Of a DNA stretch of 49,151 nt, positions 3,446-25,931 are shown piece by piece (positions within the stretch are counted from its first letter, which is position 1; each line of letters begins with the position of its first letter). The DNA is taken from the NCBI GenBank assembly GCA_900319375.1, contig ONOI01000005.1:1-49151 (forward strand). Direction: 5' to 3'. Source of the DNA: an uncultured Bacteroidales bacterium (GTDB lineage Bacteria; Bacteroidota; Bacteroidia; Bacteroidales; UBA932). Made by a program: the position numbers and the translations under genes. A model generated the notes under the pieces. That model was given only the letters and a program-made list of their open reading frames with translations. It had not been told where the DNA came from and made no database searches.

Positions 3446-3454
3446 GAGGTTTTG

Positions 3455-3525: not shown

Positions 3526-3555
3526 ATTTTATGTCAAATCCCCCGAAAGGGACTG

Positions 3556-7823: not shown

Positions 7824-7895
7824 CTTTTTAGCATTTTTTTACTGCGAGGTTGCAAGCGGTCAAATCTTTCCTCGTATGTGTAATATGTTGGAGTG

Positions 7896-8006: not shown

Positions 8007-11000
8007 ATGAAAAAAGCAATTAAGCTTCTTGTGGTGTCTTTGGCATCACTCTTTCTGGCTGCGCCTGTCTTCGCACAGGTCACAACCTCCTCAATGAGCG
8101 GTAAAATTACGGATGACCTCGGCCCAGTTGTCGGTGCCGCTGTCGTCGCCGTCCATCAACCTACAGGATCGGAGTTCTACGCAATTACCGACCCGAACGG
8201 CCGTTATGTGATCAACAGCATCACCGCCGGTGGCCCTTATAAGGTTACAGTATCTTGCCTGGGTTACCACGACTTCGTTTTTACTGGAATTGAAGTCGCC
8301 CTTTCAGATAACGCCGTCCTGAATGCCAAACTCGTAGAAGAGTCAATGACGCTGGAGGGCGTTGTTGTTACTGCAGATGGCAGGACTTCCAACATGAGTA
8401 CCGATCGCTCTGGCGCCCTTACTTCGCTCAGCAGCAAGCAGATCATGTCGGTCCCTACCGTCAGCAGGAGCATGAACGACCTTCTCAAGCAGACTCCTCA
8501 GGCCTTCGTCAGCGGTACCAAGACTTACATCGGTGGCGGTTCCTACCGCGACTCCTATGTAACAGTAGACGGTGCTGCAATGAACAATGCCTTCGGTATC
8601 GGCAGTAACCTCCCTGCAGGAGGAAGCCCGGTTTCCCTGGATGCTCTCGATCAGGTCGCTATCGCTATCACCCCGTTTGACGTACGTCAGAGCGGCTTTA
8701 CCGGCGGCGGTATCAACGCTACTACCAAGTCCGGTACAAACGAGTTCTACGCAACTGTCTACGGCTCTTTCCGCAACCAGGATATGCAGGGCTACAAAGT
8801 AGCTGACTTCGAGCCCCTTACCAAGACCGACAGCCGTTACCTTATGTACGGCGCATCCGTCGGCGGCCCTATTATTAAGGACAAGCTGTTCTTCTTCTTC
8901 AATGTCGAGGCAGACAACAGCATCACTCCCGGTCCTACCCGCAGGCTCTCTCAGCGTGAGCTCAATGGCGCAGGACAGCTCGTGGATGTAGACGGAAAGG
9001 CATACACTACCGGCAACGACGGTATCTGCTATCCTTCCGAGATAGTGATGGGTGCTATCCAGAAGTATCTGCGCGACGAGTATAGCTACGATCCCGGTCT
9101 TACCGGAGGCTACAATACCGAGATTCCTTCTCTTAAGATTCTCGCCCGTGTAGACTGGAACATCAACAAGAACCACAAACTCAATATCCGTTACAACATG
9201 GTCAACAGCAAGTACGCTTCCGCGCCTTCGACTTCGACCACCGGATTTGCAAATTCTGGTTTCTCTACCAGCAGCTGTACTTCGATGTACGCCTGCTACT
9301 TCCAGAATGCACGCTACTATCAGGAGCAGAACTTCCGCTCGATAGCAGGTGAGCTCAACTCCCGCTTCCTCGACGGTAAGCTCAACAACGTTCTCCGTGC
9401 TACTTACTCACATCAGTATGAGCCCCGTTCGGTTGAAGGCGGTTACTTCCCGTTCGTAGACCTCGTAGTCAAAGATGTCAACGGAGACGGCAAGGACCAC
9501 ATCTACACTACCTTCGGTTATGAGGCCTTCTCCTACGGAAACCTCCGCGACGTTACTACCCTCGTAGTTACAGATGAGCTTTCCTACACCCTCGGCGCCA
9601 TGACCCTGCTCGCAGGTGTTCAGTATGAGGCCGATGAGACTAAGAACGGCTTCCAGAGAATGGGCGCAGGCGCATACGTATTCGAGTTTGCAAACGAGCA
9701 GGCTATCTACGATGCGATCCAGGCCAAGACTCTGTTCGATAACCCTTCGCAGTTTGCTATTACCCACGGTAACAACGCTACTTTTGCACAGGAGTTCCCT
9801 CACTTCAACTTCGGTCAGCTTTCCTTCTATCTCCAGGACAACTGGAATATCAGCGATAATTTCAAGGTTACTGCCGGCGTACGTTTCGAGCTCCCGAACT
9901 ATCCTTCACTTGACTTCAACCGCAACGAAAGGGTAGAGCAGGCAACATTCGCACCTACCGCCTCCAATGAGTCTGGAAAGTATACGACAGTCGATATGCC
10001 TAAGACCCAGCTGTCCGTCTCTCCTCGTATCGGTTTCAACTGGGATGTTCTCGGAGACCGTAAGCTCGTCGTCCGCGGCGGTACCGGTATCTTCGTGGGC
10101 CGTATCCCGTTCGTTTGGATCGTCGGTCAGTCCGGTGACGCAGGTGTTCTCCAGACCACGGTTACCCGTCAGGGAACCTCGGCTGCAGACGCTATCCCCA
10201 CCATCAGCAACGACCGTGGCAAGATTCTCAGTCAGCTCTATCCTGACGGATTCAGCGCAGTTGCTGCAGGACAGAATCTTTCCAGCATCACTCTCCTCGA
10301 TAAGAACCTCAAGAACCCTACCGTCTGGAAGAGCTCCCTCGCTATCGACGCAGTTCTCCCCGGAGATGTCAAGGCTTCCCTCGAAGGTGTGTATAAGAAG
10401 GATATGGAGGTCGTAACCCTTACTGACATCGGTCTTAAGGCTCCTACCCGCGTTATCAGCGTTCCCGGCATCGCGGCCCGTCCTTACTATGAAGGCTTCT
10501 ACGACGGCCAGATCCAGCACGCATACCTTATCAACAATCCCGACACTAAGCTTGGTTCTTACTACTCGGTAACCGCCAAGTTGGAGAAGGACTTCAGCTT
10601 CGGTCTCAGCGCCAAGGCTTCCTATACCTACTCCCACAGCAAGGTCATCAACGACGGTGTCGGCGACCAGCCCGGTTCCGCATGGAAGGCCTTCATCACC
10701 CAGTACGGTACCAACAACCCCGAGCTTGGTTATGCAAGCTATGTAATGCCTCACCGCGTAATCGGTACTCTTACTTACACTAAGGACTACGCTAAGTACT
10801 TCGGTTCTCAGATCGCTGTTTCATACTACGGGGGCCCGACTATGCGCGGCAGCGTTGACTATGTCAAAAACGTCTACGGAGACGGAGCCTACAACTACTC
10901 CCTGATCGATATCCCTACCCTTGCAAACCTTCAGGATGAAAGCGGTAACTGGGGCGCAGGAGACTGGACCTTCAAGGATTTCAAAGATGGCGAAACAGTC

Positions 11001-11450
11001 ACCTATTCCGGCGCAGATCAGGCAAAGGACCTCTGGGACTACATCCAGAAAGACAAGTACCTCAGGACCCACACCGGAAAGATTGCAGAGCGCAACTCTC
11101 TCGTAGGACCTTGGGTGAACAGGATCGACCTCAAGTTCAACCAGAACTTCTACTTCTACACAGGATCCAACCAGCATCGTCACACCGTCCAGATCGGTGT
11201 CGACGTACTGAATGTCGCAAACCTCCTCAATCCTCATTGGGGCAATGCCTGGACAGTCAACGCAGGCGACGGTTACGGTAATGCGATTCCTATCGACCTC
11301 ACTAACGCAAAAGCCGTCTATACTGCAGGTGCAAATCCTGTCTTCCAGTTCCAGAAGAACGGATCAGAGAAGCTGACAGACATCTTCTCCATCTACAACA
11401 GTACTTCTTCAACATGGCAGATGATTATCAGTGCTAGATATATCTTCTAA
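8007..11450 (+). CDS. Oar-like TonB-dependent outer-membrane receptor
   Basis: An outer-membrane beta-barrel transporter of 1147 residues energised by TonB-ExbBD. The ATG at 8007 (or 8001, two codons earlier) gives a clean signal peptide ending APVFAQ. It is followed by a carboxypeptidase-regulatory-like domain (~25-115), a plug domain (~120-265, with TVDGAAMNNAFG and GFTGGGINATTKSGTNEF typical of the Oar/OmpA-like receptor class), and a long barrel ending in the aromatic ISARYIF that the BAM machine recognises. No SusD gene follows. Instead a 1260-residue surface lipoprotein begins 25 bp downstream with no terminator between, so this pair probably works together. Codon use is strongly biased to C-ending and G-ending codons, consistent with high expression. 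The ligand is not identifiable from the sequence. Confidence 0.88.
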   Translation: MKKAIKLLVVSLASLFLAAPVFAQVTTSSMSGKITDDLGPVVGAAVVAVHQPTGSEFYAITDPNGRYVINSITAGGPYKVTVSCLGYHDFVFTGIEVALSDNAVLNAKLVEESMTLEGVVVTADGRTSNMSTDRSGALTSLSSKQIMSVPTVSRSMNDLLKQTPQAFVSGTKTYIGGGSYRDSYVTVDGAAMNNAFGIGSNLPAGGSPVSLDALDQVAIAITPFDVRQSGFTGGGINATTKSGTNEFYATVYGSFRNQDMQGYKVADFEPLTKTDSRYLMYGASVGGPIIKDKLFFFFNVEADNSITPGPTRRLSQRELNGAGQLVDVDGKAYTTGNDGICYPSEIVMGAIQKYLRDEYSYDPGLTGGYNTEIPSLKILARVDWNINKNHKLNIRYNMVNSKYASAPSTSTTGFANSGFSTSSCTSMYACYFQNARYYQEQNFRSIAGELNSRFLDGKLNNVLRATYSHQYEPRSVEGGYFPFVDLVVKDVNGDGKDHIYTTFGYEAFSYGNLRDVTTLVVTDELSYTLGAMTLLAGVQYEADETKNGFQRMGAGAYVFEFANEQAIYDAIQAKTLFDNPSQFAITHGNNATFAQEFPHFNFGQLSFYLQDNWNISDNFKVTAGVRFELPNYPSLDFNRNERVEQATFAPTASNESGKYTTVDMPKTQLSVSPRIGFNWDVLGDRKLVVRGGTGIFVGRIPFVWIVGQSGDAGVLQTTVTRQGTSAADAIPTISNDRGKILSQLYPDGFSAVAAGQNLSSITLLDKNLKNPTVWKSSLAIDAVLPGDVKASLEGVYKKDMEVVTLTDIGLKAPTRVISVPGIAARPYYEGFYDGQIQHAYLINNPDTKLGSYYSVTAKLEKDFSFGLSAKASYTYSHSKVINDGVGDQPGSAWKAFITQYGTNNPELGYASYVMPHRVIGTLTYTKDYAKYFGSQIAVSYYGGPTMRGSVDYVKNVYGDGAYNYSLIDIPTLANLQDESGNWGAGDWTFKDFKDGETVTYSGADQAKDLWDYIQKDKYLRTHTGKIAERNSLVGPWVNRIDLKFNQNFYFYTGSNQHRHTVQIGVDVLNVANLLNPHWGNAWTVNAGDGYGNAIPIDLTNAKAVYTAGANPVFQFQKNGSEKLTDIFSIYNSTSSTWQMIISARYIF

Positions 11451-11475
11451 TATTATTAACCCATAATCAAACACA

Positions 11476-14400
11476 ATGAAAAGATTTCTTAAATTCTTTG
11501 TGGCAATCGTAGCCTCTGCTATGACTCTCTTCTCCTGCGAAGACAAAGAGCTCGAGCAGATCCTGGCTCAGATTGCATTCGACAAAGCCAGTTATGAGAT
11601 TGGAGCCGAAGGCGGACAGCTTACCGTCAAGGTTCTTACTACCGTCGACTGGACCGCAGCTCTGTCGGCTGCTACTTCCCTTGACAACATCGAGGGTATT
11701 ACACTTGCAGCAGACAAGGGTAAGGGAAGCTCCGAGCCCATCGAAATCGTCGTAAACTTCGCTGCGAACGAAGGTTTTGACAGGACTGTCAAGCTCTCTC
11801 TGTCTGGCGGCGGCGTCTCCGGATCCTGCAGCATTACCCAGAAGGGTAGCGCGGTCCGCGAGATGGAGAAGGTGACCGTTGCTCAGTTCCTTGAGAAGGC
11901 AGAAGATGCAAGCATCTACTACGAGCTTAAGGGTATTGTCAAGAGCATCACCAACACCGACTACAGCAACTTCATGATGAAGGACATCGACGGCGATGCC
12001 GAGATCCTTATCTACGGTCTTGCTTACGAATCCGATGTTGCAAACCAGAAGGTTCAGCTTCTCACCAAGGAAGGAATTCAGGAAGGCGATATCATCACCA
12101 TCGCTTCTACCCGCGGATCCTACAACGGAACTCCAGAGGGAATGAATTCCTACTACATCTCCCACGAGAAGAGCGCTACTCCTATGCTCAAGATTGACAA
12201 GGAGACTTATGAGGCATCTGCTTCAGGCGAGGTCTTTGATCTGACCGTCACCTCCAACATTGTCACTTGGACACTCAGCGCAGACGTAGATTGGCTCAGC
12301 TTCGAGCCTGCTACCGGCAATGCATCTACCACCGTTAAGGTCACCGTCGCAGCAGGCGAAGGCGGCACCGGAACTATCACGGCATCTGCCGATGGTCTCG
12401 ATCCCGTTACCTGCGTCGTTACCCGTGCAGACCTTACCGTTCTTACGATCGCCGAATTCCTTACTAAACCGGACGACCCGAACAAGGCTTACCAGATCGG
12501 CGGTATCATCACCGACATCGTGATGGATAAGGACGACGCCACCAAGCCCAATAAGTACGGCAACTTCTACATTAAGGACCGCACTGGAGAGGCTTACATC
12601 TACGGTCTCCTTCCTGAGAAGGGCGGCGCATCCGGCCAGAATGTCATCGCTGAAAAGGGCCTCAAGATTGGCGATTTCGTCAGCCTTGCAGCTCCTAAGA
12701 GCAGCTACAATGACGCTCCTCAGGGAAAGAACGCATGGCTCCTCGCTGCGTACCCTGCAAAGACTCTCACCGAGTTCCTCGCTCTCGAAGACGATGCTAC
12801 CAAGTCGGTATTCTACACCGTCAGCGGTACTGTAACCAGCATCGTTATGGACAAGACCGATGAGACCAAGCCCAACAAGTATGGCAACATCTACATCAAG
12901 GATGCGGACGGTGTTGAGCTCTACATTTACGGTACTCTCGACTGGGAAGGCGCTAAAGCCAACTTCGCGTCTCTTGAACTCAAGGTCGGCGATGTCATCA
13001 CCGGTTATGCCTACAAGAGCTCTTACAACGGAGCCGGCCAGGCAGTCAACCTCCAGCCTGTTCTCATTGAGAGCGGCGAGCCTGTTGTAGAGGATAAGTG
13101 GGATTACACTCCTAGCGCAGAGTATGTCGCTGCTACGAACAACCTCTGGAAGCCTATCTTCGACGGCAACTTCGATTATGTCTTCGGTCAGGTCACCGGC
13201 TATCAGGTCGAGGAAATCACCGAAAGCAAGACCGTTGCGAAGAAAGAGTCCACCTACAAGTTCTCGTTCACAGACGCGACTGAAGGCGAGTGGGGCTGCT
13301 GCAACTTCCTTGCACCTCTCGCAGATCACCCTGTCGCACTCAAGGCCGGCACCAAGTACAACCTCAGCGTTACACTCGGCGCCACCGCTGCCATCAGCAA
13401 GTGCATCTTCTCTCTCCACACCTATAAGGCAGACGCCGACAACCGTGAGGGAGATTGGCTGACTGACCTGTGGGGCGAGATTCCCGCCAACACACCTACA
13501 ACCTTCACTCAGGAGTTCACTCCTTCTGCTGATATCGCGAACATCGCTTGGACCATCATCCCTCAGTTCGGCACCCCTGCCGGAATGAAGTTCTACATCA
13601 AGGACATTTGCATTGTCCCGATCGTTAAGCCTGAGGATCCTGTTTACAAGTTTGAGTGGAGAACCGAGGCAGACACTCTTGTCAATGTTCCTTACAACCA
13701 GGCCGGTGCAGCCCACTGGTATGTTGAGAAGGACGCTGAGGTTGAGTATGTGTTCAAGGTTTACACAGACGACGGAAGCGTTTATACTGAGAACGGCCCT
13801 GGCATCACCATCGAGCCTGCAGCCAACCACGTAGCTATCAACTACGCGGCCAACGAGCTCGCAATACCCAGGAAGTGGATGGTTACCGCTACGACTACCG
13901 CCAATGTAAAGAATCCGGTTCTCACCGCTATCCTTATTCAGGGCGCTTATGAGTACACCGACCTCGCTAAACTCAACGCTGACATCATCGCCGACGGAAC
14001 CAAGAAGGTCGACCGTATCATCAACATCTCCGAGGATGCAAAGCTCTATGTTACCAAGAAGAGCGGTAAGAATGTCTTCGCACAGTCCCGCCACGATTGG
14101 TTCACCGGCGGTGTTCTCTTCTACGGAACCGGCCTCGAGTCTAAGGTTGCCGAGTGTAATACTATCTTCGGAAAGGTTACTGCTACTACTACTTCTTTCA
14201 ACGGAGTTCCTGAGATTACTGCTGTGACTTACAAGGAAGGCGAAGTTACCTTCGGATACGATGGCAACACCTGGCCTTGCGAGAAGGTTACAATCCAGGC
14301 TCTCAAGGACAACTACATGAAGTACGTCAACGTAAAGACCGAGTTCAACAACAACTACAACGGAGTTACCGTTTCCGACGGATTCTCAACTTCAGACCGC

Positions 14401-15258
14401 AACGGTAAGATTTCCGATTCTACCGGCGAAATCGATCTCTACGTTCAGGTTACAGACGGCACTATCACCGGCCACGTTACCGGAACCAAGCTCAACAAGA
14501 TCATCGCTTGGCCTACCTTCTACAAGACCAATCAGCAGATCGGTCTCTGGAGCCAGCCTACCGATGTAAAGAGCATCCCCGGTATCGTTACCGTTGATAA
14601 GACAAAGACCATCGTTCTCGGTGGAGATCCCGTCGAGCTTGGTGCAACCACCAACTCAACAGGCGCTCTCAGCTACAGCACTTCCGATGATAAAGTCGTT
14701 ACTGTTAGCGACGCCGGTCTCCTGACCGCAGTTGCCGCAGGTACCGCTACTATCACCGTCAATGTCGCAGCTGATGGCAAGTATACCGAAGGCGAGGCAA
14801 CCTGCGTTATCACCGTTACTGATGGTGAAGGTGGTGGCGGTGGTGAGGAGGTTGATCCTTATTCCATCGACCTCACTTACAGGCTTGGCTCTAACGCCTA
14901 TGACGACAATGTCGCGACAGTAAATGAAACTGCTGACGTGAAAGTAATCAAGATAGGAACATCTTCCAAGAAGGGTGAATTCACCGTTGTCATTCCTGCC
15001 GGCACCAAGAAGATCACTTATTATGCAGTTGGTTGGTCAGGAAAGAATACTACTCTTGATTTTCAGATTAATGGTGCTTCCGCGGCTCAGCAGGCACTTG
15101 TCGCCAACTCAGGAGCTACAGGAAACTCGCCTTTCACCCTTACGGTGACTGATGCAGATAAGTATGAGATTGTAAATGATTTTGCAGTAGAGACTCCTGT
15201 TGTAGTTACAACAACTACCAACGCCCGTGCTATCCTGTTTGGATTGAAAGCGGAATAG
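11476..15258 (+). CDS. Giant multidomain surface lipoprotein (BACON, OB-fold, jelly-roll, Big_2)
   Basis: A 1260-residue exported lipoprotein: lipobox LFSC followed by acidic EDKE, which in Bacteroidetes favours export to the cell surface. Visible modules in order: BACON (~30-125); OB-fold/DUF5689-like (~130-235); second BACON (~235-320); two more OB-like repeats (~320-430, ~430-535) that both contain an NKYGN(F/I)YIKD segment; a jelly-roll carbohydrate-binding-like module starting DKWDYTPS (~540-712); a BACON/Ig-like part (~715-825); a further region with an OB-like strand pattern (~830-1010); a Big_2 domain (~1035-1115); a Gly-rich linker; and a C-terminal beta domain. No catalytic motif is seen. 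It is likely the substrate-binding partner of the receptor upstream. Binding to nucleic acid (from the OB folds) or to glycan (from the jelly-roll) are both possible. The transcript ends at the hairpin at 15280. Confidence 0.75.
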   Translation: MKRFLKFFVAIVASAMTLFSCEDKELEQILAQIAFDKASYEIGAEGGQLTVKVLTTVDWTAALSAATSLDNIEGITLAADKGKGSSEPIEIVVNFAANEGFDRTVKLSLSGGGVSGSCSITQKGSAVREMEKVTVAQFLEKAEDASIYYELKGIVKSITNTDYSNFMMKDIDGDAEILIYGLAYESDVANQKVQLLTKEGIQEGDIITIASTRGSYNGTPEGMNSYYISHEKSATPMLKIDKETYEASASGEVFDLTVTSNIVTWTLSADVDWLSFEPATGNASTTVKVTVAAGEGGTGTITASADGLDPVTCVVTRADLTVLTIAEFLTKPDDPNKAYQIGGIITDIVMDKDDATKPNKYGNFYIKDRTGEAYIYGLLPEKGGASGQNVIAEKGLKIGDFVSLAAPKSSYNDAPQGKNAWLLAAYPAKTLTEFLALEDDATKSVFYTVSGTVTSIVMDKTDETKPNKYGNIYIKDADGVELYIYGTLDWEGAKANFASLELKVGDVITGYAYKSSYNGAGQAVNLQPVLIESGEPVVEDKWDYTPSAEYVAATNNLWKPIFDGNFDYVFGQVTGYQVEEITESKTVAKKESTYKFSFTDATEGEWGCCNFLAPLADHPVALKAGTKYNLSVTLGATAAISKCIFSLHTYKADADNREGDWLTDLWGEIPANTPTTFTQEFTPSADIANIAWTIIPQFGTPAGMKFYIKDICIVPIVKPEDPVYKFEWRTEADTLVNVPYNQAGAAHWYVEKDAEVEYVFKVYTDDGSVYTENGPGITIEPAANHVAINYAANELAIPRKWMVTATTTANVKNPVLTAILIQGAYEYTDLAKLNADIIADGTKKVDRIINISEDAKLYVTKKSGKNVFAQSRHDWFTGGVLFYGTGLESKVAECNTIFGKVTATTTSFNGVPEITAVTYKEGEVTFGYDGNTWPCEKVTIQALKDNYMKYVNVKTEFNNNYNGVTVSDGFSTSDRNGKISDSTGEIDLYVQVTDGTITGHVTGTKLNKIIAWPTFYKTNQQIGLWSQPTDVKSIPGIVTVDKTKTIVLGGDPVELGATTNSTGALSYSTSDDKVVTVSDAGLLTAVAAGTATITVNVAADGKYTEGEATCVITVTDGEGGGGGEEVDPYSIDLTYRLGSNAYDDNVATVNETADVKVIKIGTSSKKGEFTVVIPAGTKKITYYAVGWSGKNTTLDFQINGASAAQQALVANSGATGNSPFTLTVTDADKYEIVNDFAVETPVVVTTTTNARAILFGLKAE

Positions 15259-15279
15259 TCTCTGAATTACGCTAATGTT

Positions 15280-15312
15280 CAGCCCGACGGTTCGCCGCCG
15301 GGCTGTTTTTTT
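15280..15312 (+). terminator. Intrinsic terminator with UUCG tetraloop
   Basis: CAGCCCG pairs with CGGGCTG, then an A-C mismatch, then CGG with CCG capped by TTCG, followed by seven Ts. This is a very stable intrinsic terminator 20 bp after the giant lipoprotein gene. The same hairpin sequence occurs at 17442. Confidence 0.9.
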
Positions 15313-15340
15313 GTTGGGAACATAAAAATTTCTATCTTTG
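15310..15340 (+). promoter_or_regulatory. Promoter of lipoprotein gene 15382
   Basis: TTTG (15310-15313) and TATCTTTG (15333-15340) are separated by exactly 19 bp, a perfect Bacteroidota promoter. The -33 box is made by the end of the T-run of the preceding terminator. The leader is about 35 nt. Confidence 0.75.
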
Positions 15341-15381
15341 GGATGCTTTAGACACTTAAACAACCACTAATAACCATCACT

Positions 15382-17418
15382 ATGATGAAAAAATTTCTTT
15401 CGTTTATTGCTATTGCGGCAGTAGCTGCAGTCGCATTCATTTCCTGCGAAGAGAAACCGGAAGTCCCCGCGGACATCGCTCTCAAAGGCATTTCCGTTTC
15501 TCCCGCTACTTATTCCCTCGCAGTCGGCGAGACAAAGGCCCTTACAGTAGCCTACGACCCTGAAGACGCAACAATCAAACCCGAAGTCGAGTGGACTTCT
15601 TCCAACCCTGAGGTCGCAACAGTAGACGGTCGCGGTACTGTTACCGGTGTTGCTGCAGGAACTGCGGATATCGTTGCCAAGGCTGGCGAATTTACCGCAA
15701 AGTGTGTTGTCACCGTAGTCGGTGAGCCCGGCCCCGAGCCTGAGGATAAATGGGATTACACTCCTTGCGCAGATTACAGCGCTGCCAGCAACCTCTGGAA
15801 GCCTGTCTTCGACTCCGACGGCGAGAAGTATTTCTACTATTTCTGCAATGGTGCCGACTGGAACGGGACTGATACTGAGACTACCGATGTTCCTTTCCTC
15901 GAGAAGAAGACCTCTACTTACAAACTCACTATCGAGAACGGAACTACTCTTGCCTGGCAGAATCAGATCTTCTTCTTCCCCAATGAAGGACATGAGATCG
16001 CTCTTGATGCTGCAAAGCAGTACAGGATTCAGGTTACCTTCGGCGCGAGCGTGGCTACTCGTGGTTTCATCAAGATGCTGACCTACGGTGAGTCCGGCCC
16101 CAAACACGAGGGCGCTCTTATCCATGAAGTAGGCGACTTCAAGATGAGTCCTGATGCTCCTACTATCATCGATTTCCCTGCCATTTATGGTATTTCCTGC
16201 TCCAACATCAACTTCGTGATGGATTTCGGCGGAGCTCCAGCAGGAACTGTCATCTACATCAAGGACATCATCGTAGCTGAAGACGGCGACGCTCCTCAGG
16301 AGCAGCCCGAGGATAAGTGGGACTACACTCCGAGCGAGGCTTATAAGGCAGCAGCAAACAATCTCTGGAAGCCCATCTTCGACGGAAATTTCGATTACAT
16401 CTATGGTCAGATTACCGACAATAGTATTGTTGACATCACAAACTACGATGCAGTCTACAAGAATGAGTCGACCTATAGGCTCACCTTTGCCAGCGCAACT
16501 TCCGGTGAATGGGGAAACTGCAACTTTCTTTGCCCTCAGGCAGACCACAAAGTCGCTCTAAAAGCCGGTACGAAATACAATCTTTCCGTTACTCTGGGCG
16601 CAACAGCCGCTATCCAGAAGGTGATATTCTCCCTCCACGCAGATGATCCTACGAAGGAGAGTCATGAAGGCGCATGGCTGACTGATCTCTGGGGAGAACT
16701 CCCTGCCGATACTCCGACAACCTTCACTGCAGAATATACCCCTGAGGCAGATATTGAGAATATCTCCTGGACTATCATCCCTCAGTTTGGAACACCCGCA
16801 GGTATGATGTTCTACATCAAGGACATCATCATCGAGGAGGTCGTGAATAACAACGTAGTTCCTGAGTTCTTTGCCGGCACTTACAAGGTCTCCAGCCTTA
16901 AAGTTCTCGGTGGAGTAGGTACTACCGCATTCGTTGAGGTGAAGGACAAGAGCTGGATGTGGAACAGCTCCGTCAACAAGGAGTATGACAACCTCCTCGT
17001 TCTCAGTTCTACAGACAACACTGCCGACTATCAGGCTGGTGAAGACGGCGCTTATTGGGATTATATCCTCGTGGCCGACAAGAACAAGCTTGGAACTGGT
17101 GACATGAATCTCAGCCACAACTTCGGTCAGTTACCCCACGGCGTAGTCCCTTGCAACATCAACACCGAAAACGGTCAGGTTACTTTCAATAACACCCTCA
17201 CAGTTCAGGGCCTTACCGAGGGAACCTATCCTTGGGAAATGACCTGGGCAAGCGCAAAGGGCGACCTCGTCGTTCCTGCCAACTCGATCGCATTCGTGTT
17301 TAACTGCACTGTCAAACCGGACAGCGAGTACACATGGGATGCAGCATGGGCTTACTCAGACTTCGAGCGCTTCGGCCTCAGACCGTTCTACTTTGCTATG
17401 ATCTTTACTAAGCAGTAA
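15382..17418 (+). CDS. Surface lipoprotein with Big_2 and two jelly-roll modules
   Basis: A 678-residue lipoprotein (MM start, lipobox FISC followed by EEKPE, a surface-export type acidic stretch). Residues ~32-115 form a Big_2 (bacterial Ig-like) domain. Two related modules follow, both beginning DKWDYTP: ~122-305 and ~311-487. The second is very close to the module in the giant lipoprotein upstream (13092-13615), including segments such as KAGTKYNLSVTLGATAAI and WTIIPQFGTPAGM. The strand pattern, ending in a YIKDI segment, fits CBM4_9-like jelly-rolls. The last ~190 residues (~488-678) form a separate beta-rich domain I do not recognise. It is transcribed alone, between its own promoter and a terminator. 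It has no catalytic motif and is probably a ligand-binding surface protein. Confidence 0.75.
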   Translation: MMKKFLSFIAIAAVAAVAFISCEEKPEVPADIALKGISVSPATYSLAVGETKALTVAYDPEDATIKPEVEWTSSNPEVATVDGRGTVTGVAAGTADIVAKAGEFTAKCVVTVVGEPGPEPEDKWDYTPCADYSAASNLWKPVFDSDGEKYFYYFCNGADWNGTDTETTDVPFLEKKTSTYKLTIENGTTLAWQNQIFFFPNEGHEIALDAAKQYRIQVTFGASVATRGFIKMLTYGESGPKHEGALIHEVGDFKMSPDAPTIIDFPAIYGISCSNINFVMDFGGAPAGTVIYIKDIIVAEDGDAPQEQPEDKWDYTPSEAYKAAANNLWKPIFDGNFDYIYGQITDNSIVDITNYDAVYKNESTYRLTFASATSGEWGNCNFLCPQADHKVALKAGTKYNLSVTLGATAAIQKVIFSLHADDPTKESHEGAWLTDLWGELPADTPTTFTAEYTPEADIENISWTIIPQFGTPAGMMFYIKDIIIEEVVNNNVVPEFFAGTYKVSSLKVLGGVGTTAFVEVKDKSWMWNSSVNKEYDNLLVLSSTDNTADYQAGEDGAYWDYILVADKNKLGTGDMNLSHNFGQLPHGVVPCNINTENGQVTFNNTLTVQGLTEGTYPWEMTWASAKGDLVVPANSIAFVFNCTVKPDSEYTWDAAWAYSDFERFGLRPFYFAMIFTKQ

Positions 17419-17441
17419 TAATCGCTTAATTACTATTTACA

Positions 17442-17474
17442 CAGCCCGACGGTTCGCCGCCGGGCTGTTTGTTT
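17442..17474 (+). terminator. Intrinsic terminator, copy of the hairpin at 15280
   Basis: The stem halves CAGCCCG and CGGGCTG, the A-C mismatch, the inner CGG/CCG and the TTCG loop are identical to the terminator at 15280. The following tract is TTTGTTT, interrupted by one G, so termination may be less complete here. Confidence 0.85.
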
Positions 17475-17490
17475 ACATCTTGTGGGAAAA

Positions 17491-17505
17491 ATAGGCTAAG
17501 CCTAT
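17491..17505. promoter_or_regulatory. Perfect palindrome, candidate operator
   Basis: ATAGGCTAAGCCTAT is a perfect 7+1+7 dyad. It sits just upstream of, and touching, the -33 position of the promoter with -7 box 17528-17535, which drives the lipoprotein-nuclease run. A dimeric regulator could bind here; no candidate regulator gene is adjacent. Confidence 0.5.
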
Positions 17506-17527
17506 GGCTTAAAAGCGAAATATTTGT

Positions 17528-17535
17528 TAAATTTG
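17528..17535 (+). promoter_or_regulatory. -7 element of the lipoprotein-nuclease operon
   Basis: TAAATTTG is an exact TAnnTTTG match, 36 bp before the ATG at 17572. The -33 position has no clear TTTG, which would suit a promoter that needs an activator, perhaps at the adjacent palindrome. Confidence 0.55.
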
Positions 17536-17571
17536 GAAGCTATTGACAACAATAACTTAACAACACACATA

Positions 17572-19599
17572 ATGAAACTAAAAAACATCTTTTTGGCAGT
17601 TTTCGCAGCTGGTGCGGCTCTCGTAGGCTGCAACCCTGAAAACGGCCTTGAATCAGATTCTTTTGAGGTATCCGCAAAACCCGAAGTAACTATCGAGAAG
17701 GCAGGCGGAAGCTATTCTTTCACCGTAGAATCTTCCTTTGACTGGAACATCCGCGGAGTTGAAGACGCCGCAGATTGGCTCGACGTTACCGTAGACGGTC
17801 AGAGCATTACATCCAAGAGCGATGTGATCAAGGGAGCATCAAAGGCCCATGAGGTCGAAATTTCCGCCCTTGCCAATACCGATAAGGACAGGTCCGTAAC
17901 CCTCACCCTCTTTGCCGACATCAAACATCAGGTAACAGTCAAGGTTACCCAGCCTGGTGATCTTGGAGACGGAGTTATTACAACAACCGTAGCCGATCTT
18001 ATCGCAAATCCCAGCACAGACGCGACCTATCGCCTCAGCGGAACCGTAAGCGGTTTCAATTCCTCTTATTGCAGTTTTGATCTTACTGATGCAACTGGCG
18101 CTATCTACGTCTATTCGATGGAGGCCGAGTCTAAGGCCAAGTATCAGAACGTCATCAAGAACGGCGGTACTATTACCATCACCGGCAAGTACAAGTTCTA
18201 TGAGCAGAAGAGTCAGCATGAAATCGTCGACGCCGTAGTCGAGGAGTACACCCCGGCAGAAGGCGGAGACCCCGACAAAGCTACAGACGCTACCGTGGCT
18301 GAGTTTATTCAGAAGGCAGACGTCGTTGGATACTATCGCCTTTCCGGAAAGGTCAGCGGGTTCAATGATAAGTACTTCAGCTTCGATCTTACAGACGATA
18401 CCGGTTCTATTTACGTCTATTCTGTAGAGGACGCTTCCAAGACTGCGTGGGCAGGAAAGGTCCAGAACGGATACAACGTTGTGATCCGAGGCCAGTACGC
18501 ATACTATGCTGCCAAGAGTCAGCACGAAGTAGTCAACGCCATCATCGACTCCGTTGAGGAGGCCGCTCCCGAAGAGCTTGGCGCAACGGGTGTCGTTGTT
18601 GCCGTCTCTACCGCCGGATTCCTTGTAAAGACCGCAGAAGGAATAAGCTATGTGTTCGATAAGGAAGCAGTAGCTAAGGTTAAGCTTGGCGATAATGTTA
18701 CCGTTACAGGCGAGAAATCCGTCTACAACGGCGTAACAGAGATCGTCAACGCATCAGTTACAGTCAACTCCAGCGGAAACGAAGTTGTCCATCCCGCAGT
18801 TACCGCACTCGATGCAGCTGCTTTCGACGCATATGAGACTCTCTTTGGATATGTCAAGTTCTCCGGAAAGCTCACTAAGAGCGGCAACTACTACAACGTC
18901 AAGGTAAAGGATGCAGCCCGTACAGGCAGCCTCTCGAACCCCGTTTCAGTTCAGGAAGCTCTTGTCGACAAATGGGTCGACGTCACCGGTTACTTCGTAG
19001 GTATCAGCGGAAGCTCTTACTTCAATGTCATTACTACTGATCTTGCCCTCAGCGCCGACCAGCATGAAGGCGAAGAAGAGGAAGAAGAGGCTGACGCTAC
19101 CGTTGGTGAGAACGAGGTCGGTTTCGAACTTACAAATGCTGAGATTATCGCATCCCTTTCTACCAGTTCGGCTACCGGCGATGTTTATGCAGACTGGACC
19201 TTTACAAGCGCGGCTGGAAACTGGACGGGTAATGTCGATACAAAGAAAACAATCACTTACGCTCAGTTCCGCAACAACCGTTCTTCACATCTCAAATCTC
19301 CAGTATATGAGAAAAACGTCAAGAGGATCGTGTTGAGGTTCCAGGAGCAGACCTCTTCCCGTACAGTCCATGCTGTCCCGGTGTCGGTTATTCCCAATCT
19401 TCCTACTCAGAAAGACGACAACTATAACAAGACTGCCCATTCCGATCTCTTCCAGGATTCGTTCGGTTCCGTACAGTCCGGTAACAAGGAAGAATGTACA
19501 AAAGTGATCAAGGTAACGGGTGAGACGAAGGAATTTGCTCTCCTTGCACTTGACGGAGCGGTATATCTTAACAGCATCCTCGTAATCTGTGAGAAGTAG
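17572..19599 (+). CDS. OB-fold array surface lipoprotein (BACON + DUF5689/OB-like repeats)
   Basis: A 675-residue lipoprotein. The ATG at 17572 gives a signal peptide with lipobox LVGC; an upstream in-frame TTG at 17524 would lie over the promoter and is rejected. A BACON domain (~30-132) is followed by two clearly homologous OB-like repeats (~135-226 and ~236-329) sharing YRLSG.VSGFN..Y.SFDLTD.TG.IYVYS and KSQHE(I/V)V, a third compact OB-like repeat (~336-402), a fourth (~410-496), an acidic linker of Glu residues (~497-505), and an unrecognised C-terminal beta domain (~510-675). OB folds commonly bind nucleic acid or oligosaccharide. The nuclease gene downstream starts inside this gene (11-bp overlap), so the two are translationally coupled. 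I infer that this protein captures the nuclease substrate at the surface. Confidence 0.75.
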   Translation: MKLKNIFLAVFAAGAALVGCNPENGLESDSFEVSAKPEVTIEKAGGSYSFTVESSFDWNIRGVEDAADWLDVTVDGQSITSKSDVIKGASKAHEVEISALANTDKDRSVTLTLFADIKHQVTVKVTQPGDLGDGVITTTVADLIANPSTDATYRLSGTVSGFNSSYCSFDLTDATGAIYVYSMEAESKAKYQNVIKNGGTITITGKYKFYEQKSQHEIVDAVVEEYTPAEGGDPDKATDATVAEFIQKADVVGYYRLSGKVSGFNDKYFSFDLTDDTGSIYVYSVEDASKTAWAGKVQNGYNVVIRGQYAYYAAKSQHEVVNAIIDSVEEAAPEELGATGVVVAVSTAGFLVKTAEGISYVFDKEAVAKVKLGDNVTVTGEKSVYNGVTEIVNASVTVNSSGNEVVHPAVTALDAAAFDAYETLFGYVKFSGKLTKSGNYYNVKVKDAARTGSLSNPVSVQEALVDKWVDVTGYFVGISGSSYFNVITTDLALSADQHEGEEEEEEADATVGENEVGFELTNAEIIASLSTSSATGDVYADWTFTSAAGNWTGNVDTKKTITYAQFRNNRSSHLKSPVYEKNVKRIVLRFQEQTSSRTVHAVPVSVIPNLPTQKDDNYNKTAHSDLFQDSFGSVQSGNKEECTKVIKVTGETKEFALLALDGAVYLNSILVICEK

Positions 19600-20779
19600 C
19601 AAATTCATACTGGCAGTGTTCGCTGCCCTCGTCGCGACGGTCTCCTGCGAACTGATCAATCCTCAGGATCCTGAGGAGGAGCAGGGCGGGACCGTCGTCT
19701 CCGAGAACAGCATTACGCTGACCAATAATCCCGTCGGCTATGCCGCAGGAACCCAGTTCCTCGTGGTAAGTGCGAAGGCCGAATGGACCCTGACGCTGGA
19801 TTGCGGGCAGGACGTAGAGCCATGGGCAAACGTCTCTACCGATGCCGGCCGTCCGGGAACGCGCAAGGTCGTGATGGCCTGGGAAGCGAACGATGGGGAG
19901 GAGTCGAGGACTTGTACGATTACCCTGGCCGTGGGCGCCGACAAAAAGTCGCTGGCCTTTACCCAGGGCGGCAAGTCGGCGGTTAACCCCCGTCCCGTCG
20001 AGGGTCTAAACCCGGATCCAGTCCCGGCGTGGCTCGAGCTCCCGGCAACGAACGACCCCGATCTGTATTTCTTCACCCACGACATGCAGCACGGCGGGAC
20101 AACCAAGCGCAATTACTCGTTCTACCTCGATCCTCAGGCCTGCCTGGCCATCTGGGTCGCCTATCCCCTCAACGACAACCTCGCCGGTTCGGGATCCAGG
20201 ACGAATGCCTGGGCCCTCGATCCTAAGGTCCCGCGCGAGTATCAGCCCGTTATCTTCAGCGGTTTCAAGGGCGGGTATGATAGAGGACATCAGCTCCCGT
20301 CGGCGGACCGCCTGACCCGCGGCGCCAACGAGCAGACCTTCTATGGAACCAATATGACCCCGCAGAAGGGCGAGTTGAACCAGAAAGCCTGGGCTACTCT
20401 AGAGGGAAAAGTCCGTACTTGGGCGAACCAGTTCGACACGCTATATGTCGTTACCGGCTGCGATATAAGGGGCTCCTACGATTATGCCTACGACAACGAC
20501 GGCAAGGACATCCCTGTCCCCGTCGGTTACTTCAAGGCCCTGCTGGGCTTCAAGAAGGGAGGTACGGTAGGTAATACCGCCAAGCAGGGCGGATATACCG
20601 CAATCGGCTTCTACTTTAACCACGAATACTACTCCGACTCCGAGATTATGGGCCAGTCGATGACTATCGACGAACTCGAAGCAGCGATGGATATCGATTT
20701 CTTCCCGAATCTCGAGGCTAAGTTAGGCACAGACCTTTACAATAAAGTTGAATCGACCGGCGACAGCTGGTGGAAATAA
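19589..20779 (+). CDS. DNA/RNA non-specific endonuclease (NUC family) lipoprotein with BACON domain
   Basis: A 396-residue exported nuclease. The GTG at 19589 is the only start that gives the signal peptide (FILAVFAALVATVSC lipobox); acidic residues follow the Cys. Residues ~35-130 form a BACON domain, and ~145-390 a Serratia-nuclease-like betabetaalpha-metal fold. The motif DRGH has catalytic H234; N264 (metal ligand) and E272 follow at spacings of 30 and 8, exactly as in the Serratia enzyme (H89, N119, E127), so the protein should be active. The family cuts single- and double-stranded DNA and RNA with Mg2+. The membrane anchor would keep it on the cell envelope. It sits between an OB-array lipoprotein and an EEP hydrolase in the same transcript. 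Confidence 0.9.
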   Translation: MRSSKFILAVFAALVATVSCELINPQDPEEEQGGTVVSENSITLTNNPVGYAAGTQFLVVSAKAEWTLTLDCGQDVEPWANVSTDAGRPGTRKVVMAWEANDGEESRTCTITLAVGADKKSLAFTQGGKSAVNPRPVEGLNPDPVPAWLELPATNDPDLYFFTHDMQHGGTTKRNYSFYLDPQACLAIWVAYPLNDNLAGSGSRTNAWALDPKVPREYQPVIFSGFKGGYDRGHQLPSADRLTRGANEQTFYGTNMTPQKGELNQKAWATLEGKVRTWANQFDTLYVVTGCDIRGSYDYAYDNDGKDIPVPVGYFKALLGFKKGGTVGNTAKQGGYTAIGFYFNHEYYSDSEIMGQSMTIDELEAAMDIDFFPNLEAKLGTDLYNKVESTGDSWWK

Positions 20780-20784
20780 ACCAA

Positions 20785-21843: not shown

Positions 21844-21847
21844 CACA

Positions 21848-24796
21848 ATGAAAAAACTGTTAACAGTTGCAGCTGCGCTGCTTTTCTCCGTCCTCGTTTT
21901 CGCCCAGGCCTATACCGGCGGAATCAAGGGTACGGTAGTAAGCCGTGCGGGCAGGGTACCGGTCTCAGGAGCTGAGATGGTCCTCTCGCAGGATGGCAGG
22001 CAGCTTGCGGAAATAACTTCCGGTTCCGAGGGACAATTCCTCATCGAGGGCCTTGCAGACGGTGTATACCAGCTCAAGGTTACCGCAGACGAGTTCTCCG
22101 ACCTCACCGTCTTCGTAACAGTCGACAAAGGCTTTGTCAAGGACCTCATCTTCGTCTCCCTGACCCCTTCGGCCAGCATCCAGGAGGCAGACGAGAGCAA
22201 CTATGCCGAGTTCGATATGGAAGACTCCGGTTACTCTGATGCCCCGACCCTCCTTCTGGGCTCGAACGACGTTTATACCAACATCGCCGGTTTCGGTTTC
22301 AGCTCGATCCGTTTCAAAAACAGAGGTTACAATTCCGAAACTCAGGACGTCTACCTCGCGGGTGTGAAGATGAACGACGCGATTACCGGCTATTCTCCCT
22401 TCTCGCTCTGGAGCGGTCTGAACGAGGCTATGCGCTCGAAGGACACGACCATCGGCCTTGAGACGGCAGACGCCGGCCTGGGCGGCTTCAACGGCGTTAC
22501 TGACATCCATGCCGTCCCGCTGAGCGTCCGTACCGGCTGGCGCTTCTCCGCCCTTAGCAACAGCGCCCTCTACCGTATGCGTTTGATGGCGTCCTATGCT
22601 TCCGGCGAGAACAACGGCTGGAGCTACGCATTCAACGCCTCGCTCCGCGTCGGTGGAAACGACTGGATCGAGGGAGTCTACTACCGCTCGCTGGCCTACT
22701 ACTTCGGAGTTACGAAGAGGCTGGACGACGCCGGTAAGCTCACCCTCTTTACCTTCGCGACCCCCGGTCAGAGAGGCGCTCAGAACGCTTCGACCCAGGA
22801 AGTCTACGACCTCATGGGCGACAATATGTACAACAGCAACTGGGGTTACCAGGACGGAAAGGTCCGCAACTCCCGCGTGCGCCACACCTTCGAACCCGTT
22901 ACGGTCCTGAAGTACGAGTACGCTCCCGAGGATATTCCCCTGACCGCTAATGCTACCCTCCTCTGGAGGACCGGTTACAACGGTTATACCGCCCTCGACT
23001 GGTACGACGCGATGGATCCCCGTCCGGACTACTACCGCAACCTCCCGAGCTACTACTACATGGAGGATGAGGACTACAACCGCGTAAACCAGGATAAATA
23101 CGACTGGACATACTACGCCTGGACCCACAGAGGACCCGAGTACAACAACTACCAGCACCTCAACTGGGACCGTCTCTATAACGTCAACTACAACAACCCC
23201 GACGGCCGCAGCAAGTACGCCCTTGAGGAGCGCCACGTAGACCAGAACGACCTTCAGTTTGCCGCCAACGCGAAGTATCGCGTCAGCGAGGACCTCGTCG
23301 TAAAGGGCGGCGTAGATCTCCGTGCCAACAGGACCGAGAACTACAAGAAGATGAACGATCTTCTCGGAGGTCAGTACTTCCTGAATATAGACAGCTTCGC
23401 TGAGCGCGATTTCGCCGCCAACGAGGCTCTCCTTCAGAACGACCTCAATTATTATCTCGCTCATGGTACGGCAGAGAAGATTAAGAAGGGCGGCAAGTAC
23501 GGCTACGACTACCTCGCCCAGATCCGTGTCGCCGACCTGTGGGGCAACGCTTCCTACAAGCTCGGCGCCCTTACCGCAAACCTCGGCGCAAAGGTCGGCG
23601 TTACCGCCTTCTGGCGCGACGGCCTCGTCCGCAAGGGCCTTTTCGCCGGCGCGAATCCCGACGGATCCCACATCTACACGACCGACATCAACGGCCTTCA
23701 GGTCGATCTTACGAACCTCTCGAACGGCCAGACTTCCTACGGCAAGTCCGAAAAAGCCAAGTTCCTGACCTATGCAGCGAAAGCCAGCGTAGCATATGAT
23801 CTCTTCGGCAACAGCCGCGTAAGCGCGAATGTCGGCTTCTTCAACGACGCCCCGACCTTCAACAACAGTTTCATCTCGCCCCGTACCCGAAATACGATCG
23901 TTGGTAACCTGACTACCCAGAAGACTCTTTCAGCTGATGTGAACTATCAGATTGCATCGGAGTGGGTGAGCGCCCGCGTTACCGGCTTCTACACGAAGAT
24001 CATGGACCAGACTGACGTGATGAGTTTCTACGACGACTCCCAGCAGAGCTTCACCAACTTCGCAATGACCGGCATCGACCAGCGCCATATGGGCGTCGAG
24101 CTCGGCGTGAAGGTCCCTCTTCCTCTGAAGGGCCTCAGCATCAGCGGAGTTGTCAGCCTCGGCGAGTATATCTACACCTCGACCCCCCACATGGTCCAGA
24201 CCGTAGATAACAGCGCAGAAGTCGTACGCGACGACGAAGTCACATACTGGCAGCAGCATCCCGTCTACGTCCCGGTATCTTATACGGCGGACGGTGTTCC
24301 TGTTTTCGACGAGAACCTCGACGGAAGCTTCAAGGTAGACCACTACCAGAAACACTACGTCCCGAGTACTCCTCAGTTCGCCAGCGAGCTCGCTCTGAAC
24401 TACCGTACAAACAGCTACTGGTTCTTCGAGCTCAACGGCCAGTACTTCGATAGGGCCTATCTCGATATGAACCCTCTCTACCGCACTACCTTCGCGGCCA
24501 GGGGCAGCGAGTCCAACCCTGCCGTAATTGACTATCTCGCGGGCCAGGAGAAGTTCGCTCCCGCGTTCCTTCTCAACGCCTCTGCAGGAAAGAGCTGGTC
24601 AATTCAGCGCAAGTACTACCTGGGATTCTCCCTCAACGTCAACAACATCCTGAACAACAGGAATGTAAAGACCGGAGGTTACGAGCAGACCCGCCTTATC
24701 AGCAGTGTCGGCAAGGACCGTTACTACAGGTTCGATCCTAAATACTTCTACATGCAGGGAGCAAACTATATGTTGAACATTTACTTCAGATTCTAA
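21848..24796 (+). CDS. TonB-dependent outer-membrane receptor, SusD-less
   Basis: A 982-residue outer-membrane receptor. A signal peptide ending LVFAQ is followed by a carboxypeptidase-regulatory-like domain (~22-110), a short linker rich in Asp and Glu (~112-125), the plug (~130-230, with RFKNRGYNSETQDVYLAGVKMNDAI as its core) and a barrel closing in MLNIYFRF. It shares its class with the receptor at 8007 but is clearly a different protein. No SusD follows; the next gene, 4 bp downstream, is a DUF5689 lipoprotein that could serve as the lid or capture partner. Sitting between an EEP hydrolase and a DUF5689 protein, it probably imports products of the upstream hydrolases, which is inference. 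Confidence 0.88.
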   Translation: MKKLLTVAAALLFSVLVFAQAYTGGIKGTVVSRAGRVPVSGAEMVLSQDGRQLAEITSGSEGQFLIEGLADGVYQLKVTADEFSDLTVFVTVDKGFVKDLIFVSLTPSASIQEADESNYAEFDMEDSGYSDAPTLLLGSNDVYTNIAGFGFSSIRFKNRGYNSETQDVYLAGVKMNDAITGYSPFSLWSGLNEAMRSKDTTIGLETADAGLGGFNGVTDIHAVPLSVRTGWRFSALSNSALYRMRLMASYASGENNGWSYAFNASLRVGGNDWIEGVYYRSLAYYFGVTKRLDDAGKLTLFTFATPGQRGAQNASTQEVYDLMGDNMYNSNWGYQDGKVRNSRVRHTFEPVTVLKYEYAPEDIPLTANATLLWRTGYNGYTALDWYDAMDPRPDYYRNLPSYYYMEDEDYNRVNQDKYDWTYYAWTHRGPEYNNYQHLNWDRLYNVNYNNPDGRSKYALEERHVDQNDLQFAANAKYRVSEDLVVKGGVDLRANRTENYKKMNDLLGGQYFLNIDSFAERDFAANEALLQNDLNYYLAHGTAEKIKKGGKYGYDYLAQIRVADLWGNASYKLGALTANLGAKVGVTAFWRDGLVRKGLFAGANPDGSHIYTTDINGLQVDLTNLSNGQTSYGKSEKAKFLTYAAKASVAYDLFGNSRVSANVGFFNDAPTFNNSFISPRTRNTIVGNLTTQKTLSADVNYQIASEWVSARVTGFYTKIMDQTDVMSFYDDSQQSFTNFAMTGIDQRHMGVELGVKVPLPLKGLSISGVVSLGEYIYTSTPHMVQTVDNSAEVVRDDEVTYWQQHPVYVPVSYTADGVPVFDENLDGSFKVDHYQKHYVPSTPQFASELALNYRTNSYWFFELNGQYFDRAYLDMNPLYRTTFAARGSESNPAVIDYLAGQEKFAPAFLLNASAGKSWSIQRKYYLGFSLNVNNILNNRNVKTGGYEQTRLISSVGKDRYYRFDPKYFYMQGANYMLNIYFRF

Positions 24797-24800
24797 GCGT

Positions 24801-25931
24801 ATGAAAAAGACAGTTATTGCACTATTCGCCCTCGTGGCGCTCGTTTCCTGCCAGTCTCTGAAGGAAGAGTTCCAGCCGGTATTTACCGTCAAGTATTCCA
24901 ATCCTCCGGCATACGAGAGAACTGTTCCGGCTACTACTCACACTATCTCCCAGCTTGTCTCGAAGTACATTCCCGAGAAGCCGATGGTCATCAACGAAGA
25001 CATCGTCATCTCAGGTATCGTCAGTACTACCGACCAGCCCGGCAACTTCTACAAGAGTTTCTTCATCCAGGATGAGACCGGAGGTATCGAAATCAAAGTC
25101 GGAAAGAACAGTCTCTACAACGACTACCTTCCCGGACAGAGAGTATCTGTACTTTGCCGCGACCTTACCCTTGGAATGTATGGTTACAAAACCGGAAATT
25201 ACGGCGGAATGGGAATGGCCCAGATAGGCTTCTCCGACCCGTCCGGAACCTATGAGACCTCTTATCTCGAGTCCCAGATGATTATCGACGACCACATCTT
25301 CCGCGGAGACGTCGAAGGTCTGGTAACCCCTCAGGTCGTTACTGCCGCAAGTCAGCTTCCCGACCCGAAGACCGCTACCCAGGCGACTCATCCTCTTGTA
25401 GGTAGTCTCGTTACAATCAAGGGCCTCAAGTACGCAGGTGAGACCTTCGTCCTCCTTTATCTGGACAGCACCAAGGACAAGAAATCCGGCACTAACCGCG
25501 TCTTCCTCTCAGACAGCAACGGCCTCGGAAAATTCGGCAAGACCCACGGCATCACTACCTGGGCCATGTCCGAGAACAAGATGAAGGAACACCTCCTCGC
25601 AGGTGACTGGGACGACGCCGAGGTAGCCAGCGGCTCCGAGTACCTCCTAGACGAAGAAGGCAAACACGTAACCCTCGGACATCCTATGCTCAAGGGCGAC
25701 GGCAGCTATCCGGGAGTCGAGAAGGCAGCCTACAGCGTAAGCCAGTACTTCACCCTCGGCGGTACTTCGGTTCAGGTCCGTACCAGCGGTTTCTGCAAGT
25801 TCGCCGACGTAGAGATCGATCCCGCAGTCCTCAAGGGCGAAAAGACTATCTCCGTCACCGGTGTAATCAACCTCTATCAGGGAAGCATCCAGATAACCGT
25901 CAACTCGCTCGACGATTTCGTAGTAGAATAG
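24801..25931 (+). CDS. DUF5689-domain lipoprotein
   Basis: A 376-residue lipoprotein (lipobox LVSC, then QSLKEE). Residues ~35-300 match the Bacteroidota DUF5689 pattern: TISQLVSKYIPEKPMVINEDIVISGIVSTTDQPGNFYKSFFIQDETGGIEIKVG (recognisable parts: IVISGIVSTTD, SFFIQDETGGIEI), an OB-like fold followed by a second beta region with repeated OB-like strands. DUF5689 proteins are often encoded next to TonB receptors and exported nucleases in this phylum, as here. It is preceded by the receptor (4-bp gap) and followed by the M3 peptidase (1-bp gap). A ligand-binding role at the surface is likely; the ligand is unknown. Confidence 0.82.
   Translation: MKKTVIALFALVALVSCQSLKEEFQPVFTVKYSNPPAYERTVPATTHTISQLVSKYIPEKPMVINEDIVISGIVSTTDQPGNFYKSFFIQDETGGIEIKVGKNSLYNDYLPGQRVSVLCRDLTLGMYGYKTGNYGGMGMAQIGFSDPSGTYETSYLESQMIIDDHIFRGDVEGLVTPQVVTAASQLPDPKTATQATHPLVGSLVTIKGLKYAGETFVLLYLDSTKDKKSGTNRVFLSDSNGLGKFGKTHGITTWAMSENKMKEHLLAGDWDDAEVASGSEYLLDEEGKHVTLGHPMLKGDGSYPGVEKAAYSVSQYFTLGGTSVQVRTSGFCKFADVEIDPAVLKGEKTISVTGVINLYQGSIQITVNSLDDFVVE

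Follow-up and report, generated by a model that had tools for sequence, protein, structure and literature searches.

Can a run of genes for TonB-dependent receptors, surface lipoproteins and exported hydrolases serve a Bacteroidales cell to take up nucleic acid, and if so, to what end? The question is raised by a locus at positions 8007–25931 of contig ONOI01000005.1 (assembly GCA_900319375.1) from an uncultured Bacteroidales bacterium of the UBA932 lineage, of which we analyzed the whole stretch of 49,151 nucleotides (hereafter, the window). The original prediction, made by reading the sequence, described eight genes here as a locus akin to a polysaccharide-utilization locus (PUL), dedicated to DNA or RNA and serving nucleoside or phosphate supply. 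The list of open reading frames (ORFs) and Pfam confirm that all eight genes are present, all on the plus strand; three of the starts (8007, 17572 and 20785) are ATG codons within ORFs beginning at 7938, 17524 and 20770, respectively, and it is there that the signal peptides start. We conclude that the locus is likely an outer-membrane machine that would import nucleic acid. Our full explanation, to which we assign a probability of about 0.5, is that this machine has gained a surface nuclease in a lineage with a short ComEC, and that the import serves nutrition.

Five of the genes form the closely packed run that had been described. They encode a lipoprotein with BACON and OB-fold domains (17572..19599), a lipid-anchored DNA/RNA non-specific endonuclease, NUC (19589..20779), an exported enzyme of the endonuclease/exonuclease/phosphatase family, EEP (PF19580; 20785..21843), a TonB-dependent receptor (21848..24796) and a DUF5689 lipoprotein (24801..25931), and they overlap or lie no more than 5 bases apart. 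The lipoprotein and NUC genes share 11 bases, NUC is separated by 5 bases from the ATG of EEP, and the next gaps measure 4, 4 and 1 bases, the run extending past DUF5689 into genes for an M3-family peptidase and a phosphoglycerate mutase. In a Pfam scan of ten window proteins (7938–29459), NUC was assigned to Endonuclease_NS (PF01223; E 3e-37), with a weak BACON match, and it also matches NucA-like nucleases in the PDB (E 3e-17). The claim that its H-N-E triad is complete holds: the DRGH motif and H234-N264-E272 show no variation among the 7 aligned sequences (that of the window and 6 others). A second NUC-like gene is present in the same genome (G000:C75:294-1061) and is 39% identical across the nuclease part. 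The EEP ORF matches Exo_endo_phos_3 (E 3.5e-90), and eight positions, which we take to be the catalytic ones, are identical in 24 of 24 aligned sequences; by sequence, EEP found no relative in the PDB. The lipoprotein preceding NUC matches two OB-fold families, the best of them tRNA_anti_2 (E 1e-11), in addition to BACON.

The receptor and the DUF5689 lipoprotein could be understood only with the help of structural models. Pfam detected CarboxypepD_reg and no barrel family in the receptor, and in a sequence comparison with solved structures it was matched only by its small N-terminal domain. Nevertheless, its AlphaFold model (mean pLDDT 80.6, with residues 109–154 below 50) has TonB-dependent transporters among the 50 Foldseek matches listed, as expected of a plug-and-barrel fold. 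The downstream lipoprotein carries DUF5689 (E 4e-38), with tRNA_anti-codon below the cut-off, and was modeled with a mean pLDDT of 90.3 and a pTM of 0.84. Three of its Foldseek matches reach E ≤ 0.001 and all three are RPA entries; the others listed are RADX, CST, BRCA2, HIN-type and aminoacyl-tRNA synthetase entries, some of the labels being our own presumptive assignments. These matches support OB folds and at most make it likely that DUF5689 binds nucleic acid. A search of the PDB by sequence returned one chance match (E 0.63). DUF5689 family members above the cut-off were also found in the control genomes of Bacillus subtilis and Bacteroides ihuae; B. subtilis has an extracellular OB-fold nuclease, YhcR.

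A role for such a pair of proteins has been demonstrated in one bacterium. In the open-licence PMC literature, DUF5689 appears only in work on Riemerella anatipestifer, where markerless deletion of either RA0C_RS04915, a CarboxypepD_reg outer-membrane protein, or RA0C_RS04920, a DUF5689 protein, abolished natural transformation (PMC8459023). The authors speculate that DNA binds RA0C_RS04920 and passes through RA0C_RS04915, and they consider the machinery 'unique', with the receptor found in Flavobacteriaceae only. Two TonB proteins of R. anatipestifer are also needed for normal transformation; for one of them, TonBA, the authors ruled out an iron defect and suspect that nutrients are involved indirectly (PMC8383284).

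The receptor and the DUF5689 lipoprotein of the window are homologues of this pair. In our collection, locus L163 has the order RecA, four genes, ComEC, two genes, EEP, receptor, DUF5689, which is the spacing of the tags RS04870, RS04895, RS04915 and RS04920. Furthermore, its DUF5689 protein, at 599 bits, exceeds the NCBIfam cut-off for the M949_1556 family lipoprotein, and M949 tags are those of Riemerella. From the gene spacing and this family match, we infer that L163 is the Riemerella locus or a very near relative of it; RS04910 would then be an EEP, a neighbor for which PMC8459023 reports no deletion. The window receptor is 27% identical to that of L163 over the full length (313 bits), the two EEPs are 28% identical, and the DUF5689 proteins align with an hhalign probability of 100. 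In both loci, the CarboxypepD_reg receptor is directly followed by the DUF5689 lipoprotein, and EEP adjoins the pair in L163 as well. However, in L163 EEP is encoded divergently, NUC is missing from the surroundings, and ComEC has 602 amino acids including DUF4131, whereas in the window NUC, EEP, receptor and DUF5689 follow each other in one direction and ComEC of the same genome has 368 amino acids. We regard the window locus as a variant of the Riemerella-type DNA-uptake pair that misses a ComEC with the OB domain; in layout, it resembles both that pair and a Sus-like locus. The transformation role of its best-studied relatives is a point that had not been considered in the original prediction. 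In Chryseobacterium-like genomes, a gene of ~640 amino acids close to the locus was considered as a ComEC candidate and rejected, its product being Rho-like by eye.

The gene order is conserved far beyond chance. From a scan of named species genomes with a receptor profile, we retained the best 80 of at least 573 relatives, that is, the nearest ones rather than a random set; they come from rumen and gut Bacteroidales metagenome-assembled genomes, Candidatus Cryptobacteroides, Muribaculum sp. An289, Alistipes and Rikenellaceae. In every one of the 76 testable loci, DUF5689 lies directly 3' of the receptor; EEP lies directly 5' of the receptor in 77 of 77 and NUC 5' of EEP in 72 of 74, and the two loci in which NUC was missed (L187 and L194) do show a NUC gene in a coarser map. 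The order NUC-EEP-TonB-DUF5689, the loss of which in relatives had been named as a reason to abandon the prediction, is therefore kept. A recognizable BACON, OB or Big lipoprotein stands beside NUC in 43 of 64 testable loci, and the M3 peptidase gene lies 3' of DUF5689 in 54 of 75.

Beyond these near relatives, the core consisting of EEP, receptor and DUF5689 is widespread across the class. We sampled 119 genomes of the order, taking one from each family but two from that of the window; 53 of them have a clear receptor match (best E ≤ 1.2e-40). In 50 of these 53 loci, DUF5689 lies 3' of the receptor, and EEP stands beside it, usually in divergent orientation, in 35 of 53 by gene map and in 31 of 48 by a distance rule. 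At the level of the class, DUF5689 is found 3' in 19 of 20 loci and EEP adjoins in 14 of 20; the corresponding numbers for Weeksellaceae-like loci are 9 of 10 and 10 of 10. Across the phylum, where the first six candidates per genome were scored, 50 of 148 genomes yielded a receptor match (E ≤ 1e-30), and the 22 matches above 670 bits, including that of the window's genome, all belong to the same class as the window. A receptor tree built with a quick method follows taxonomy, the window's family forming one clade (support 98).

Co-occurrence, the scoring of which had been suggested along with the prediction, leads in the same direction. EEP scores in the 119 genomes split into a module type above 400 bits and a general type below 380 bits. 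With the module type and the 53 receptor genomes defined above (25 weaker matches being uncounted), both genes are present in 51 genomes, only the receptor in 2 and only EEP in 4, and 62 have neither of them (Fisher p 3e-26). The two genes lie on different contigs in 13 of the 51 genomes, so their link would be more than one of neighborhood, with the reservation that some contig breaks may split true neighbors.

Nucleases other than NUC also accompany the core. In the 38 order loci with 3 kb available on both sides, NUC is near the core in 6 and an Endonuclease-I-like nuclease in 5. Within the window's family, 12 of 20 NUC-seeded loci read NUC, EEP, receptor, DUF5689, and 7 of the 20 (L123, L125–L128, L130 and L131) encode NUC in fusion with a DUF5689-like part, as checked with Pfam for L123; L120 is another NUC fusion. 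An Oar-like receptor lies directly 3' of all 7 fusions (six by locus map, L131 by coordinates). Judging from these gene arrangements, the NUC-DUF5689 fusion together with the Oar-like receptor would be a second form of the system, one without the EEP/receptor core.

We propose that the machine works as follows. The surface OB and BACON lipoproteins together with DUF5689 would catch DNA, and perhaps RNA, which the lipid-anchored NUC would cut outside the cell. The receptor encoded at 21848, energized by TonB and with DUF5689 as a cap replacing SusD, would draw the strands into the periplasm, where EEP, if that is its place, would process them. In the window's lineage, where ComEC is short, the core would have gained NUC and the operon layout, and DNA would have become a source of nucleosides, carbon or phosphate. 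Of the original prediction, the handling of nucleic acid, an architecture for import across the outer membrane and the existence of a functional unit are supported. Nucleoside or phosphate supply is a plausible purpose, but the only role demonstrated for the core is transformation, in Riemerella. There is precedent in the phylum, as Lutibacter assimilates carbon from DNA (PMC8289736).

The alternative that survives best, although we consider it unlikely, is that natural transformation has remained the task of the operon in this lineage, with NUC trimming or nicking surface DNA before its uptake by the receptor. Apart from the essential pair of Riemerella, it can draw on the presence of DprA in 78 of 79 family genomes (the window's own, G000, included), of ComEC in 76 of 79, and of a ComEA-like HhH protein in the window's genome (L261; above the TIGR00426 cut-off and below that of comE). 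However, these genes are near universal and therefore uninformative on transformation, ComEC being found in 113 and an HhH protein in 117 of the 119 order genomes, the latter count mixing Tex-like and ComEA-like proteins; all three were rejected as phylogenetic markers. The form of ComEC would speak against transformation. Full ComEC forms also carry DUF4131, whereas ComEC of the window's genome (368 amino acids; L259:1778-2884, plus strand) and that of a congener (373 amino acids; L260:3226-4347, minus strand) consist of the channel domain only. DUF4131 is the DNA-binding OB fold of ComEC, and its removal stops transformation in B. subtilis (PMC12455585). Moreover, a non-specific nuclease at the surface would shorten incoming DNA, and Flavobacterium johnsoniae, which has homologues of the pair, was not transformable in the hands of the Riemerella authors (PMC8459023).

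Many members of the family have short ComEC open frames, and their distribution tends to follow NUC. We compared 74 of the 76 genomes with ComEC, leaving out two fragments, and called an open frame short below a cut at 600 codons. Of the 26 receptor-bearing family genomes, 20 have NUC, and 17 of these have a short ComEC, as against none of the 6 that lack NUC; across all 74 genomes, ComEC is short in 28 of the 35 that carry NUC versus 16 of the 39 that lack it. When the receptor alone is used as the label, no association with ComEC length is seen (17 of 26 versus 27 of 48, p 0.47). This pattern would agree with a change of use, from taking up genes to feeding. Taken together, the short ComEC and the added lipid-anchored NUC would make feeding the likelier use in the window's lineage, and we put the chance that it is the main end use there at roughly one in two.

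Still less probable is that NUC and EEP merely degrade extracellular DNA, be it as food, in a biofilm matrix or in defence against DNA nets, with the receptor importing nucleosides, metal, phosphate or something else. Such a role would suit two exported hydrolases, and secreted nucleases are common in Bacteroidota (PMC11495043, PMC8289736), those of the NUC type being among the ones reported (PMC11495043). However, the requirement for the receptor in Riemerella transformation points to DNA as its cargo (PMC8459023). Furthermore, in the order sample the core is found more often without NUC than with it. Finally, a glycan or phosphoester utilization locus with a superficial look of nucleic-acid handling is very improbable, for although BACON, Big_2 and the weakly matched CBM_4_9 are modules typical of lipoproteins that bind glycans and EEP families also include other phosphoesterases, the ten scanned proteins contain neither SusD nor glycoside hydrolases, as had been predicted, NUC has a complete non-specific nuclease motif, the partners of the core elsewhere are nucleases, and the DUF5689 model is RPA-like.

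Several observations nonetheless weigh against import of nucleic acid for nutrition as the explanation of the locus. BACON, Big_2 and CBM_4_9-like modules are equally often glycan binders. The TM-scores of the DUF5689 matches are only 0.15–0.27 on the query, with three matches passing the E-value of 0.001, so that they indicate a fold class and no close match. The core is patchy: of 79 family genomes, 27 have a receptor scoring above 500 bits, one congener (G336) has none, and EEP lies away from the receptor in 6 of the 20 class loci. The EEP profile was built from linked copies and its threshold was set afterwards, both of which favor co-occurrence. Lastly, the counts that associate ComEC length with NUC ignore relatedness.

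Among known systems, the locus resembles a Sus-like PUL in that a TonB receptor, surface lipoproteins and a surface hydrolase are united in one run. Unlike a PUL, it has nucleases; the original comparison was fair as to layout, and DUF5689 may replace SusD, but the definition of a Sus system fails for want of SusD itself. The OB-fold lipoprotein resembles the first part of ExeM/NucH DNases and the Riemerella-like EEP their nuclease part, the scores (25 and 22, against a cut-off of 300 bits) being those of weak matches far below the cut-off; in the window, the corresponding proteins are separate. The Bacteroides thetaiotaomicron B12 transporter (8bmx), which is among the Foldseek matches listed, likewise combines a TonB transporter with a surface lipoprotein other than SusD, but its cargo is a small molecule, and its lipoprotein presumably belongs to a family different from DUF5689. 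In the DNA-utilization loci of Candidatus Izemoplasma, extracellular nucleases are clustered with import functions, and the authors draw the comparison with PULs; however, these loci have ABC transporters, and the text searched does not mention a TonB receptor (PMC8289736).

The eight genes, taken as one set in the original prediction, probably belong to two transcription units. The first would comprise an Oar-like TonB-dependent receptor (8007..11450; OMP_b-brl_4 and CarboxypepD_reg) and a large lipoprotein with BACON and Big_2 modules and the lipobox SC (11476..15258), and the second would begin with a large lipoprotein carrying Big_2 and a jelly-roll CBM_4_9 match below the cut-off (15382..17418). 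The division is suggested by a terminator-like stem (15286-15307) followed by a Bacteroidetes-type promoter motif (15310-15340) on the plus strand, both of them pattern matches. The stem alone is weak evidence, as 20 terminator-like sites were observed across the window versus 16.7 in shuffles; the promoter motif, for which we assumed a consensus, has 3 matches in the window versus 0.43 expected. A sigma-70 scan of the window gave 8 sites, below the shuffle level.

The Oar-like receptor and the lipoprotein at 11476 look like a second, looser unit, and two receptor types stand beside one nuclease in the window. As a candidate member of the core, the Oar-like receptor was rejected, since it lies 5' in only 20 of 55 testable loci of the named relatives. 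Still, its proximity to NUC in the family exceeds chance: among the 34 genomes that have both, 11 carry the two no more than 5 kb apart and 22 no more than 25 kb apart, against rough chance values of 0.5% and 2.7% (counting NUC above 115 bits, in 36 of 42 genomes, and 58 of 63 Oar genomes, five partial matches being excluded). Genes like that at 11476 adjoin Oar in the NUC-fusion loci. By eye, a module starting near 'WDYTPS' repeats in the lipoproteins at 11476 and 15382, and it spans the weak CBM_4_9 match. At the other end, the M3-family peptidase (25933..27930, plus strand), with a lipoprotein-type signal, is a possible passenger of the operon and perhaps acts on DNA-bound proteins. No PADLOC families were found in the four window proteins searched. 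Upstream of the locus, a SAM-II riboswitch (7818-7879, minus strand, 62.4 bits) lies, by eye, directly 5' of an S-adenosylmethionine synthetase-like gene (6564-7823), and genes for tRNA-Met and tRNA-Gln (3369-3586, minus strand) have a Bacteroidetes-type promoter motif (3556-3586) just 5'.

Among the matches listed in the open-licence PMC literature for follow-ups of the Riemerella pair, TonB-linked DNA uptake in the phylum and nucleic-acid use by Bacteroides, nothing concerned this operon. Extending the argument to the class, we tentatively suggest, at slightly less than even odds, that in Bacteroidia a TonB-driven, SusCD-like DNA transporter, consisting of the receptor, a DUF5689 lid and EEP, replaces the pilus-secretin route. 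It would be ancestral to the class, serve competence in Riemerella, and have been retooled in gut Bacteroidales, through a surface nuclease and the reduction of ComEC, for nucleic-acid use. The receptor-DUF5689 core is now seen beyond Flavobacteriaceae, in 53 of 119 genomes of the window's order, with EEP as a third member and with a predicted OB fold for the DUF5689 family. For transformable Bacteroidota, homology to the Riemerella pair makes the route by which DNA crosses the outer membrane testable, and the NUC-bearing form with its short ComEC would offer a natural case for separating the import of DNA as food from its import for transformation.

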